Positions 15,974 through 59,693 of a stretch of 59,693 nucleotides of DNA are shown piece by piece (position 1 is the first letter of the stretch; every line of letters begins with the position of its first letter). The notes beneath the pieces are model-generated. The model worked only from the letters and a program-made list of their open reading frames with translations, made no database searches and was not told the origin of the DNA. The position numbers were made by a program, and so were the translations under genes. The stretch is from Minisyncoccota bacterium (GTDB lineage: Bacteria > Patescibacteriota > Minisyncoccia > Minisyncoccales > JAQTPW01). The stretch lies in NCBI GenBank assembly GCA_028712565.1, contig JAQTPW010000006.1:1-59693 (forward strand). The letters are read 5' to 3'.

Positions 15974-16690
15974 ATGGCGGGAAACCCAATAATTAAATTA
16001 GAAAAGGTTTGGAAGATTTACAAATTAGGCAAGTCCGACCTTAATATTTTAAAGGATGTCAGCCTGGAAATTTTTCCAGGCGCTTTTGTCGTAATTTTAG
16101 GCCCTTCGGGCTCGGGGAAATCAACTTTGTTGAATATGGCAGGTTGCTTGGATTTGCCGACAAAGGGAAAAATATTTTTAGATGAAAAAGATATTGCGAA
16201 AATGTCAGAAGATGAATTGGCGGAAGCCCGAGGCAGAAAAATCGGCTTTATATTTCAGCAATTTAATTTGTTGCAAAATCTAAATGCCTTGGAAAATGTT
16301 ATGATCCCGATGATATTTCAGGGAAAACCGGAGAAAGAAAGGAAAGAAAGGGCCGAATTTCTTTTGGATTCTTTGGGTTTAAAAGAAAGGTTTTTACACA
16401 AACCCTCTGAATTGTCCGGGGGCGAACAGCAAAGAATAGCCATTGCCAGAGCCCTTTCCAATAACCCCGATATTATTGTGGCTGACGAGCCGACGGGAAA
16501 TTTGGATTCCGCAACCGGCAAAAAAATAATGGAAATTTTAATAGGCCTCCATAAAAAAGAGGGAAAGACAATTGTGGTTGTAACTCACGATCCTACAATA
16601 GCAGATTACAGCAACCAAATAGTTCATATTAAAGACGGGCAGATTGTCTCAAATCATTTCGCACAGGAAAAAGTATTGTGGGAGAAATGA
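15974..16690 (+). CDS. ABC transporter ATP-binding protein (MacB/LolD-like)
   Basis: GPSGSGKSTLLNMAGCLDLPTKG…LSGGEQQRIAIARAL…ADEPTGNLD; ATG at 15974. Confidence 0.93.
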   Translation: MAGNPIIKLEKVWKIYKLGKSDLNILKDVSLEIFPGAFVVILGPSGSGKSTLLNMAGCLDLPTKGKIFLDEKDIAKMSEDELAEARGRKIGFIFQQFNLLQNLNALENVMIPMIFQGKPEKERKERAEFLLDSLGLKERFLHKPSELSGGEQQRIAIARALSNNPDIIVADEPTGNLDSATGKKIMEILIGLHKKEGKTIVVVTHDPTIADYSNQIVHIKDGQIVSNHFAQEKVLWEK

Positions 16691-16718
16691 AATTCCAAAT
16701 CACAAATTACAAATCACA
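16691..16718. repeat. Heptameric tandem units, left arm flanking the four-helix-bundle gene
   Basis: AATTCCA AATCACA AATTACA AATCACA. Confidence 0.8.
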
Positions 16719-16729
16719 AAAAATATCAA

Positions 16730-17095
16730 ATGACCGAAATCAAAAATCCAAAAATTTATGATTTAGAAGAACGTACGGCAAGATTCGCCGAAAAATGCCG
16801 GGATTATGTTATAAAATTACCCAAAACTCAGGCAAATACAGAATACGGAAAGCAACTTATTCGCTCCTCGGGATCCCAAGCTAGTAATTATATAGAAGCT
16901 AACGAATCTTTGGGTAAAAAAGATTTTAAGCTTCGTATTAGAATTTGCCGGAAAGAGACAAAAGAAAGCTGTTTATGGTTGCGTTTATCACAGGTAATTG
17001 AGAAAAGTGACTTGAGGGAAGAGAGACAGGATTTATTAAAAGAGGCGGGAGAACTTCGTAATATTTTTACTGCCATTCTTAATAAAGCAATATAA
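16730..17095 (+). CDS. Four-helix-bundle protein (23S rRNA intervening-sequence/S23 family)
   Basis: YDLEERTARFAEKCRDYVIKLPKTQANTEYGKQLIRSSGSQASNYIEANES…RKETKESCLWLRL. Confidence 0.88.
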   Translation: MTEIKNPKIYDLEERTARFAEKCRDYVIKLPKTQANTEYGKQLIRSSGSQASNYIEANESLGKKDFKLRIRICRKETKESCLWLRLSQVIEKSDLREERQDLLKEAGELRNIFTAILNKAI

Positions 17096-17112
17096 TTTGA
17101 ATTTTAAATAGG

Positions 17113-17147
17113 TTTGTTTGTAATTTGTATATTGTAATTTGTAATTT
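17113..17147. repeat. Heptameric tandem units, right arm, inverted relative to 16691-16718
   Basis: TTGTTTG TAATTTG TATATTG TAATTTG TAATTTC. Confidence 0.8.
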
Positions 17148-17150
17148 CAT

Positions 17151-18365
17151 ATGATTTTTAACGAATACCTGAAAATAGCAATTAAAAATTTAAGGACAAG
17201 GCAGTTGAGAAGCTGGCTGACGATTTTGGGCATTGTTATTGGAGTATTTTTGATAATGTCTTTGCTCTCTTTGAGCCAAGGATTAAAAAATACGGTTTTA
17301 AAACAGCTTAGCGCAATGGGAACAGATATTATTATGGTAATGCCCGGAAGCTTATCCGATTTTATGACAACAATGATGGGGGGAGTAGAGCTGACAAATT
17401 CTGATTTGCAGGCGATAGAAAAAACAAAAGGAGTGGAGGCCGTGATTCCCATGGCATACAAAGGAGAATCGGTAAAGTACGAGAGCGAAAACAAAATTGC
17501 TATTTTATACGGAATGGACATTAAAAACTCTCTTTCAATTTACAAGGAAGATATGGGTATGGATGTAAAAGAAGGCCGTTGGCTTTTGCCCGGAAAGCGG
17601 GAAATTGTTGTGGGAAGTTTGGTGCCCTTGGATGTTTTTCCGGGTTTGAAAGTAGGAAAGGTTGCCACGATAAAAGGAAAACAGTTTGAAATTGTGGGCA
17701 TTTTAAAATCTTTGGGAAACAGGCAGGATGATTCAATGATTGGGATAGACCTTGATATTTTTCGTTCTATTACCGGAGAAAAAGACGGGGCTCCGCAGGC
17801 TGTGGTAAAAATTGCAGCTGGCTTTTCTGTTGATCAAGTTGCAAAAGATATAAAGAAAAATTTAGAAGAAAACGCAAAAAGAAGGGCCGGCCAGGAAGAA
17901 AACGCTTATTCGGTTTTAACCAGCGACGCCTTATCCGGCATAGTGGGGAACGTTATGGCGATTTTGCAGATTGCGATTTTTTCTTTTGCCAGCATTGCGA
18001 TTATTGTAGGAGGCATAGGCATTATGAATACTATGTACACTTCTGTCAGAGAAAGGACAAAAGAAATTGGAATTCTAAAAGCAGTCGGGGCCAAAAATTC
18101 AACAATAATAATGATTTTTCTTATGGAGGCAGGAATTATAGGCCTTATTGGGGGATTGGGCGGAATGATATTCGGTTTGGGTTTGGCAAAGTCAGTTGAA
18201 TTTATTGGAAAAATGAATCCATCTTTTTACATTCAAGCTTCAATTACTCCGGGTCTCATAATTTTTGGCTTCGCTTTTTCTTTTGGCGTCGGATGTCTGT
18301 CCGGCTTTTTCCCAGCCAGAAGCGCAGCAAAATTAAAGCCAGTAGAGGCGTTGAGATATGAATAA
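17151..18365 (+). CDS. ABC transporter permease, MacB-like/FtsX family
   Basis: TILGIVIGVFLIMSLLSLSQGL…GGIGIMNTMYTSVRERTKEIGILKAVGAKN. Confidence 0.93.
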   Translation: MIFNEYLKIAIKNLRTRQLRSWLTILGIVIGVFLIMSLLSLSQGLKNTVLKQLSAMGTDIIMVMPGSLSDFMTTMMGGVELTNSDLQAIEKTKGVEAVIPMAYKGESVKYESENKIAILYGMDIKNSLSIYKEDMGMDVKEGRWLLPGKREIVVGSLVPLDVFPGLKVGKVATIKGKQFEIVGILKSLGNRQDDSMIGIDLDIFRSITGEKDGAPQAVVKIAAGFSVDQVAKDIKKNLEENAKRRAGQEENAYSVLTSDALSGIVGNVMAILQIAIFSFASIAIIVGGIGIMNTMYTSVRERTKEIGILKAVGAKNSTIIMIFLMEAGIIGLIGGLGGMIFGLGLAKSVEFIGKMNPSFYIQASITPGLIIFGFAFSFGVGCLSGFFPARSAAKLKPVEALRYE

Positions 18366-18368
18366 GAT

Positions 18369-18405
18369 TAGTAACTGGTAACTGGTAACCGGTAACTGGT
18401 AATTA
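18369..18405. repeat. Heptameric tandem units
   Basis: TAGTAAC TGGTAAC TGGTAAC CGGTAAC TGGTAAT. Confidence 0.85.
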
Positions 18406-31441: not shown

Positions 31442-32560
31442 ATGAAAAAAGTAATTATCGCCCTTTCCGGCGGAGTAGATTCGTCTGTTGCAGCAGCTCT
31501 TTTGAAAAAAGCAGGTTTTGAAGTGGAGGGAATTTTTATGAAATTAAATAATTTTTCCAAAAATTCGGAAGAAAGAGCAAGACAAGTAGCTAAAGTTTTA
31601 AAAATACCGATTCGCATTTTGGATCTGAGGAAGGAATTTGAAAAAGAAATAATCAATAAGTTTTTAGAAGATTATAAAAGCGGAATTACGCCGAATCCCT
31701 GCGTAATTTGCAACAAAGAAATAAAATTTGGAAAGTTATTGAAAACCGCTTTAAAAGAAAAAGCAGATTTTATTGCTACCGGCCACTATGCAAGAGTTAA
31801 AAATAATTCGAATTTACAAATTAAACCCGAATGCCACGAATATTCGGAGCATTCGGATAAAGATTCGAATCATTCGAATTATACTCTTTTGAAAGGGAAA
31901 GATGAGAATAAAGATCAATCCTATTTTTTGTGGAGATTGGATCAAAATCAGCTAAAGCACATTTTATTTCCAGTAGGCGGCAAAACAAAAGGGGAAGTTA
32001 GAAAATTAGCAAAAAAGTTTAAATTGCCGACCTACAATACCCCGGCTTCCCAAGAAATATGCTTCCTTCCGGGAAAAATCAATGATTTTTTAGAAAAAAA
32101 ATTAAAGGCAAAAGAAGGAAACATTTTGGATTTAAAAGGAAATATCCTTGCAAAGCATAAGGGGCTTTGGTTTTATACAATAGGACAAAGAAAAGGGATT
32201 GGTTTGGCCGGAGGGCCTTATTATGTAATTGGCAAAGATTCCAGAAAAAATGTTTTGTTTGTATCAAAAAGCGAGGGAGATTTGCTAAAAAAAGAAGTTT
32301 TAATAAAGGAAGCAAATTGGATTTCTGGCAAAGAGCCGAAGTTGCCGTTAAAAGTTATGACAAAAATCAGGTATCGAGGGAAAGAAACTTTCGCAAAAAT
32401 TTACAAAACAAAAAATAAAAAGTACAAAGTACAATTTAGTTCTCCGCAGCGGGCAGTTACCCCGGGCCAGTCAGCTGTTTTTTACTTGTCCGTCCGAAGC
32501 CCCGAAGGGGCGAAAGGGGGCGAAGGGCAGGTACTGGTAGGCGGCGGGATAATTTGTTAA
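31442..32560 (+). CDS. mnmA: tRNA 2-thiouridine(34) synthase
   Basis: ALSGGVDSSVAAALL, NPCVICNKEIKFG, DQSYFLWRL, TIGQRKGIGL. Confidence 0.95.
   Translation: MKKVIIALSGGVDSSVAAALLKKAGFEVEGIFMKLNNFSKNSEERARQVAKVLKIPIRILDLRKEFEKEIINKFLEDYKSGITPNPCVICNKEIKFGKLLKTALKEKADFIATGHYARVKNNSNLQIKPECHEYSEHSDKDSNHSNYTLLKGKDENKDQSYFLWRLDQNQLKHILFPVGGKTKGEVRKLAKKFKLPTYNTPASQEICFLPGKINDFLEKKLKAKEGNILDLKGNILAKHKGLWFYTIGQRKGIGLAGGPYYVIGKDSRKNVLFVSKSEGDLLKKEVLIKEANWISGKEPKLPLKVMTKIRYRGKETFAKIYKTKNKKYKVQFSSPQRAVTPGQSAVFYLSVRSPEGAKGGEGQVLVGGGIIC
31806..31882. repeat. 9-nt-phased repeat units inside mnmA
   Basis: ATTCGAATT…GCCACGAAT ATTCGGAGC ATTCGGATA AAGATTCGA ATCATTCGA. Confidence 0.65.
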
Positions 32561-40838: not shown

Positions 40839-41247
40839 GCCCACTATTCGGCAATTAATAAAAAAAGGAAGAGAAAAAATTAAAAAGCGCAATAAAACGC
40901 CGGCTTTAAAATTTGGCTTTAACCCCAAAAAGAATCGGCCAAAGAATTTTCTCTCTCCTTTCAAAAGAGGAGTTTGTTTGAAAGTTTTCACCGTCACTCC
41001 TAAAAAGCCAAATTCTGCTTTGAGAAAAGTTGCCAGAGTCAGATTGACAAATAATACGGAAGTTACGGCTTATATTGCAGGCGAGGGCCATAATCTTCAG
41101 GAACACTCGATAGTTTTAATAAGAGGCGGCAGAGTAAAAGATTTGCCGGGCGTCAGATATCATATAGTTAGAGGAATCTTAGATGCAGCCGGAGTAGAGG
41201 GGAGAAAGCAGGAAAGATCAAAATATGGAGTTAAAAGAACAAAATAA
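40837..41247 (+). CDS. rpsL: 30S ribosomal protein uS12
   Basis: [12 protein letters not shown]…[21 protein letters not shown]…[10 protein letters not shown]. Confidence 0.98.
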
Positions 41248-41249
41248 AA

Positions 41250-41284
41250 ATTAGAATTTAGAAATTAGGATTTAGAATCTAGTA
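41250..41284. repeat. Heptameric tandem units
   Basis: ATTAGAA TTTAGAA ATTAGGA TTTAGAA TCTAGTA. Confidence 0.8.
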
Positions 41285-41763: not shown

Positions 41764-41867
41764 AAATCACAAATCACAAATTACAAATCCCAAACAAATT
41801 AAAAATAAAAAAATGGCCAATAGAATTTAGTTTTTGTTTGTAATTTGGTGCTTGTAATTTGGAATTT
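41764..41867. repeat. Inverted pair of heptameric repeats without an ORF
   Basis: AAATCAC AAATCAC AAATTAC AAATCCC … TTGTTTG TAATTTG GTGCTTG TAATTTG GAATTTT. Confidence 0.8.
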
Positions 41868-44029: not shown

Positions 44030-44106
44030 GGTAACAGTAAGCAATAAATAGTAAACCTAATAATTAATATTTAATTTGTTGACTGTTGATTGCTAACTGT
44101 TAACTA
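44030..44106. repeat. Eleven phased degenerate heptamers forming an imperfect inverted repeat
   Basis: GGTAACA GTAAGCA ATAAATA GTAAACC TAATAAT TAATATT TAATTTG TTGACTG TTGATTG CTAACTG TTAACTA. Confidence 0.8.
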
Positions 44107-59021: not shown

Positions 59022-59693
59022 ATGCATCTTTCTGTAATAATCCCGGCCTATAATGAAGAAAAAAGGCTGCCAAAAACTTTAGAAGAAATTGACAAATATC
59101 TGTCAAAGCAAAATTACGATTACGAAATAATCGTAGTTTCTGATGGCTCAAAAGACAAGACCGCAGAAGTGATTGAGAAATGTAAAATGCAAATTGCAAA
59201 TTTACGCTTGATTGCGAATGTGGAAAATCATGGCAAGGGTTATGTTGTCAGGCAGGGAATGTTAGGAGCGAAAGGGGATTATAGATTATTTACCGACGCC
59301 GATAACTCCACTTCTATAGATCAAGTTGAAAAAATGTGGCCAGAATTTGAAGCGGGTTACGATATAGTTATTGGTTCAAGAGACGCAAAGGGAGCAGTTT
59401 TAGATCCGCCCCAGCCCTGGTTGAGGCAGATTATTTTAGGAGAGGGTTTTAAATTGTTCAGAAAATTAGTAATTGATTTATGGGGAATTTCCGATACGCA
59501 ATGCGGTTTCAAAGGTTTTACAAAAAAGGCGGCAGAAGATATTTTCCCAAAATGTAAAATTGACCGTTTTGCTTTTGACCCGGAAATTTTGATTTTAGCC
59601 AAAAAATTCGGATATAAAATAAAAGAAATACCGGTTTTATGGAAAAACGATTTGGAATCCAAAGTTAAATTTAAATCAATGCTTAAGATGGCT
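59022..59693 (+). CDS. Family 2 glycosyltransferase (DPM1-like), truncated by window end
   Basis: MHLSVIIPAYNEEKRLPKTLEEIDKYLSKQNYDYEIIVVSDGSKDKT…DADNSTSIDQ; open to last base. Confidence 0.92.
   Translation, partial: MHLSVIIPAYNEEKRLPKTLEEIDKYLSKQNYDYEIIVVSDGSKDKTAEVIEKCKMQIANLRLIANVENHGKGYVVRQGMLGAKGDYRLFTDADNSTSIDQVEKMWPEFEAGYDIVIGSRDAKGAVLDPPQPWLRQIILGEGFKLFRKLVIDLWGISDTQCGFKGFTKKAAEDIFPKCKIDRFAFDPEILILAKKFGYKIKEIPVLWKNDLESKVKFKSMLKMA

Follow-up and report, generated by a model that had tools for sequence, protein, structure and literature searches.

A putatively mobile, intervening-sequence-like cassette with inverted heptamer arrays in an ABC exporter operon of a Minisyncoccota bacterium

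Results and Discussion

Anatomy of the cassette

The window is the whole stretch of DNA that was analyzed, 59,693 nucleotides of a Minisyncoccota bacterium (GCA_028712565.1, contig JAQTPW010000006.1, positions 1–59,693, forward strand). On its plus strand, genes for a MacB-like ABC exporter ATPase (15974–16690; assigned on the basis of its reading frame) and a MacB-like permease (17151–18365) are the 5′ and 3′ host operon neighbors of a cassette of ~460 bases, which takes up all of the space from the ATPase stop (16690) to the permease start (17151). The cassette carries, also on the plus strand, a gene for a 121-amino acid four-helix-bundle protein (IVP; 16730–17095), framed by two heptamer arrays. 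The left array (16690–16720, plus strand; units AAATTAC, AAATCAC, and AAATTCC) reads AAATTCC AAATCAC AAATTAC AAATCAC AAA. The right array (17117–17147, minus strand) has the left unit reverse-complemented (TTGTAAT), and as its reverse complement reads AAATTAC AAATTAC AATATAC AAATTAC AAA. The arms that contain these arrays (16687–16723 and 17114–17150; 37 nt each) are 84% complementary. An earlier note, made from the letters alone, had placed a gene of the rRNA intervening sequence (IVS) type between the two exporter genes and had described inverted heptamers on either side of it; both the position and the inverted arrays were borne out, the latter also by the excess of lag-7 arrays over other lags described below.

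The tetranucleotide ATGA occurs at both borders of the cassette on the plus strand, at 16687–16690, where it contains the TGA stop codon of the ATPase gene, and at 17151–17154, where it contains the permease start codon. The two might be copies of a target, which is unproven; across 105 cassettes there is no significant excess of shared border bases that would mark a target-site duplication (4.72 vs. 4.55 shared bases, sd 0.09). The IVP gene is the sole gene called between the arms, and neither a transposase nor a recombinase is encoded in the cassette.

In the predicted RNA fold, the arms of the window cassette form the closing stem, and the total energy of the fold lies within the usual range (z = -1.5). 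The cassette thereby fulfills, in sequence and predicted fold, one criterion for an rRNA IVS, namely complementary ends that close a stem around an open reading frame (ORF), and it resembles the rRNA IVSs with an S23p ORF (Coxiella, Leptospira, and Brucella) in protein family, complementary ends, and sense orientation of the ORF. Unlike these, it sits in a protein operon, between two protein genes. Because the criterion of location inside an rRNA gene is failed, we file the window copy as an IVS-like cassette, a variant rather than an rRNA IVS. Heptamers preceding the S23p ORF of the Coxiella IVS have been reported (PMC4990558). In the rRNA IVS literature that was read, such heptamers are treated as a local feature, with no link to array families elsewhere in genomes. 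Apart from the Coxiella IVS note, no literature was found that joins four-helix-bundle or IVP proteins with heptamer arrays.

Family and fold of the IVP protein

We know of no function for the IVS-encoded S23/IVP proteins, in all the time since rRNA IVSs were described. The window protein scores above the family cut-offs of both PF05635 (35.1 bits; cut-off 33.8) and TIGR02436 “four helix bundle protein” (54.4 bits; cut-off 24), and its AlphaFold model consists of four long helices (pLDDT 92.5), in agreement with the family assignment of the earlier note. The top Foldseek matches are 2RLD and 2GSC (the latter being Xcc0516), which are also matched by profile (9.5e-24 and 3e-26, respectively). 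Xcc0516 is a homopentamer, as cited in PMC4990558; by analogy with its solved relatives, the IVP protein is probably a pentamer as well. No match to the L001 protein was found in phage records. In three copies (L253, L254, and L012) the IVP frame is open over 376–504 codons, possibly fused to, or lying in-frame inside, a longer ORF.

The four-helix-bundle fold is common to Avd, the accessory protein of diversity-generating retroelements (DGRs), and Foldseek aligns the Avd structures 4DWL and 8UB7 with the window protein at a TM of ~0.7, so that an Avd-type protein partnered with a reverse transcriptase had to be considered. Weak family matches elsewhere do lie beside reverse transcriptases (e.g., G091:C41, G075:C40, and G038:C15). 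Against this reading, the window genome has no match to the reverse transcriptase family PF00078 (RVT_1), 48 of 74 IVP-positive genomes likewise lack RVT_1, and, as judged from sequence and modeled fold, the window protein is nearer the S23-family proteins than Avd; we regard an Avd role as scarcely credible. A reverse transcriptase partner for IVP was rejected on its own count, a reverse transcriptase being present in 26/74 IVP-positive and 17/73 IVP-negative genomes. The three weak PF05635 matches named above, and a fourth (G071:C1), are situated ~1 kb from a reverse transcriptase and probably represent DGR Avd proteins.

Arrays beside IVP genes

Two surveys were made of the flanks of IVP genes. 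The first comprised 110 IVP genes of the same order and arrays of period 7 or 8; by the method used, 70 of these genes have arrays of the same period to the left and right, another 30 have an array to one side alone, and 10 have none, for a total of 100 genes adjoined by at least one array. The density of lag-7 arrays is 4.3 per kb in the 100 bp that flank the genes left and right, vs. 0.2–0.3 per kb beyond 300 bp, and the control lags 6 and 9 are near zero. The second survey covered 58 IVP genes from other classes of the phylum, named Patescibacteria genomes, Cyanobacteria, Gemmatimonadota, Bacteroidota, and Azospirillum plasmid records, and found at least one array in 51 (both sides in 36, one side in 15, none in 7). 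The arrangement recurs across phyla, both in rRNA and in operons for exporters, pili, conjugation, and CRISPR-Cas; the Azospirillum copy (L137) is a classical IVS inside 23S rRNA, with heptamer arms on both sides. The 10/110 and 7/58 IVP genes without an array, by the method used, count against a mobile cassette.

The two arms of a cassette are related as inverted repeats. Left and right units agree at 0.718 when one is inverted, vs. 0.505 (sd 0.013) for arms permuted between loci (z = 16.9), and the inverted fit is better than the direct fit in 60/70 cassettes of the first survey and 32/36 of the second. The polarity of the arms follows the gene: a unit model with an A-R core and ~5 free positions, learned on loci other than those scored, places 174 of 213 held-out period-7 arms in the gene-sense orientation. 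All-frame stop codons were considered as the cause of the period of 7 or 8 and rejected as too weak for a main explanation (56% in left arms vs. 44% in column-shuffled arms).

The median distance from the upstream stop codon to the start of the left array is 1 nt. Upstream neighbors are co-oriented with the IVP gene in 87/90 cases; because ordinary close gene pairs are also co-directional in 96/105 cases, co-direction with neighbors alone is weak evidence. Two plasmid copies (L126 and L129) are antisense to both of their neighbors.

Some single loci bear separate mention. Arrays of octamers (period 8) appear repeatedly among scattered IVP lineages, and in the left flank of a Gemmatirosa IVP gene (L136) an octamer array is followed directly by its own inverse. 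Two cyanobacterial plasmids (L127 and L133) have an IVP gene that separates cas6 from cas4, and a further one (L134) has an IVP gene with cas10 on one side and a cmr3-type gene on the other; inside CRISPR-Cas operons, IVP genes may be mistaken for CRISPR accessory genes.

Empty and filled sites

Homologues of the window permease are present in 120 of 147 genomes of the same order. Among the 20 permease loci that were read, the cassette occurs at its own locus, and neither an IVP gene nor an array stands just upstream of the permease in any of the 19 others; we conclude from these loci that the window insertion site is empty in relatives. In 16 of the 19, the end of the ATPase gene abuts, overlaps, or is close to the permease gene, and in the remaining three (L219, L222, and L223) another permease-like gene, not the ATPase, precedes it.

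Filled and empty states of one site were also found elsewhere. Downstream of a TraM-type gene on Nostoc plasmids, an IVP cassette is present in L128 and L199; in L200 the same site is occupied by an element without IVP, the GGGAACT arms of which are related, and in L203 (Nostoc sp. C057) by a different IVP-less insertion on the 300-nt scale with AATTCAA heptamer arms; in L201, L202, and L204 it is empty, with no array present. Likewise, L126 has a cassette at the nrdB/nrdA junction, and L205 has the junction without one. The proposal of the earlier note that the gene is part of a mobile or passenger cassette, for which it had named empty sites in relatives as a check, is therefore supported by recurrence and by these sites; movement itself is inferred from distribution and was not observed.

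The array word follows the IVP gene

The window genome contains four IVP genes, each flanked by its own 7-mer: ACTAGCC, CTGGTAA, a weaker ATATCAA, and the AAATTAC of the window cassette. In the closest homologues of the window protein (52–67% identity), the arm word is AAATTAC, AAATTCA, or AAATTCT; these homologues reside in unrelated operons, beside type IV pilin genes, a second pilus-assembly-type operon, Fic/PrgI-type genes, and an efp-like gene (names read from translations, without a family search). Gene and arms are thus found together at other loci, as the earlier note had proposed to check, and its refuting case, a gene conserved at one syntenic place with no arms elsewhere, was not met. 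Its further question, whether the family has the same flanks throughout, receives a divided answer: the flanks are common in kind, as inverted arrays, but not in sequence, the word differing between copies.

Across copies, IVP genes with more similar proteins tend to have more similar units (Mantel r = 0.388; null maximum 0.075), and the correlation is unchanged with locus GC held. Array period (7 or 8) requires 13 changes on the protein tree vs. 17.9 expected. As a strict property of protein clades, period was rejected: it is clustered, yet it switches often on the tree, and so is not a strict readout of the protein. In the loci compared, whether an array is present, which word it has, and how that word is oriented all go with the IVP gene.

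The co-variation of unit and protein would also be expected of a host RNA-binding regulator, by which IVP binds heptamer arrays in mRNA to affect stability or translation and its own arms serve as autoregulatory operators. Such a role would accord with the many arrays located a few nt from stop or start codons, and with the post-transcriptional role that MacGregor proposed for TAACTGA repeats in Beggiatoaceae (PMC4679880). Nevertheless, closely similar units of gene plus word lie in unrelated operons of different genomes, sites are empty in relatives, and one copy is inside rRNA, all of which argue for insertion behavior rather than a fixed regulator; we consider regulation as the primary explanation unlikely, and a regulatory side effect of IVP or its arrays is not excluded.

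In RAYT systems with REP/REPIN sequences, one protein gene is flanked by a repeat, further copies of which are scattered over the genome. The likeness of the IVP cassettes, with one protein gene and dispersed small repeats, to this general scheme raises the alternative of a non-autonomous element moved in trans by a transposase of the IS200/IS605 or RAYT type, as is thought for REPINs. This is highly improbable: the window genome lacks an HUH/Y1 enzyme (PF01797 being the family searched), the arms are arrays of 7- or 8-mers rather than single palindromes, and the unit, which varies between copies, co-varies with IVP itself.

Single arrays away from IVP genes

Arrays also occur alone. In the 414 kb of the window genome that were read, there are 42 lag-7 arrays, compared with 0–2 at lags 4, 5, 6, 8, 10, 11, 13, and 15, 12 at lag 9, 6 at lag 12, and 20 at lag 14. 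No IVP gene adjoins 36 of the 42, and 32 of these 36 have no inverted partner. The single arrays are thus not simply IVP-deleted cassettes, a possibility rejected with an inverted partner in just 4/36 (~3 expected). One example (18371–18402, plus strand; unit GTAACTG) begins 5 nt after the permease stop codon, with no IVP gene and no inverted partner within 600 bp, and its unit corresponds to the arm unit of a different IVP copy in the same genome (L002). A second (41764–41794, plus strand), also without an IVP gene beside it, has the AAATCAC/AAATTAC word of the window cassette arms. Other arrays of the window without an adjoining IVP gene are at 32405–32434, 41241–41282, 44058–44105, and 59178–59202; together with the second example, their words belong to several families.

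The words of the single arrays resemble those of the four resident IVP genes (0.732) more than random sets of four IVP words drawn from other genomes (0.646; none of 5000 draws as high). At the threshold used, none of the resident IVP words falls into one cluster of 11 arrays (TTTAGAA/TTAGTAA). Among genomes, arrays away from IVP genes number 26 in 273 kb of IVP-positive contigs vs. 1 in 271 kb of IVP-negative contigs, and such arrays occur in 11/19 IVP-positive vs. 1/20 IVP-negative genomes, with lag-6 counts equal between the two sets. This contrast in density, based on one contig stretch per genome, is our main argument that IVP may make, spread, or maintain the arrays.

Heptamer repeats of this type have been described without a known cause in Beggiatoaceae, Bacteroidetes, cyanobacteria, and Xanthomonas, as intergenic, degenerate 7-nt tandem arrays that are dispersed and at times form inverted pairs (PMC4679880; PMC4692102). 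No mention of S23, four-helix, or IVP proteins was found in either paper. The cyanobacterial STRR, the TAACTGA of Beggiatoaceae, and the GGGAATC of Xanthomonas are alike with the present arrays in form, and differ in that their function and spread remain unexplained in those papers; the source species of Xcc0516, a solved IVP, is described as rich in GGGAATC arrays. The occurrence of such repeats in many bacteria, together with the 36/42 arrays of the window genome that stand alone, could be taken to indicate that arrays are ordinary slippage repeats or preferred targets, into which the IVP gene simply inserts. An array split by such an insertion would have direct halves, however, and the arms fit better as inverted repeats in both surveys; moreover, the empty Nostoc sites have no array and IVP-negative contigs are nearly array-free. 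We therefore disfavor this explanation as very unlikely.

Proposed mode of action

Taken together, we consider it probable that the locus holds a mobile IVS-like cassette, the IVP of which recognizes the arrays of its cassette and acts in trans to support the single arrays dispersed elsewhere, with the reservation that there are no transcript or binding data. The layout would be a heptamer array, the IVP gene, and the same array inverted, with the cassette inserted in sense between the stop and start codons of a transcribed operon. Given such a position, IVP is probably expressed from the host operon transcript, and the arms could pair into a long stem, as do the ends of rRNA intervening sequences; the existence of the stem in vivo is inferred. 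A multimer of IVP is proposed to bind the array unit, made up of the A-R core and ~5 copy-specific bases. Recognition of the unit by IVP, itself an inference, would account for the co-variation of unit with protein and for the near-restriction of single arrays to places with IVP genes.

Cassette copies and single arrays might then arise via an RNA or single-strand intermediate with the aid of host enzymes, and hairpin template switching and slippage could keep the two arms alike. What the sequences themselves demonstrate is the anatomy, the distribution of cassettes and arrays, and the co-variation of unit with protein; excision, mobilization of single arrays in trans, and this route of movement are all inferred. 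The enzyme of movement was not identified in the window genome, in which neither a PF00078 reverse transcriptase nor a PF01797 (Y1) transposase was found.

Implications

As a tentative generalization, which we hold to be possible rather than probable, IVPs may organize a distinct kind of mobile element, bounded by arrays of a 7- or 8-base word specific to each copy and moving without a transposase or reverse transcriptase of its own; the STRRs, the TAACTGA repeats of Beggiatoaceae and Bacteroidetes, the GGGAATC repeats of Xanthomonas, and the rRNA intervening sequences would then be its products. If movement is confirmed, the cassette would be a mobile unit of ~450 bp that encodes neither of these enzymes. 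A protein of unknown function is linked to the scattered heptamer repeats of bacterial genomes and, because array presence, word, and orientation follow the IVP gene, both the function of IVP and the cause of the heptamer repeats can be tested on a single protein–repeat pair.
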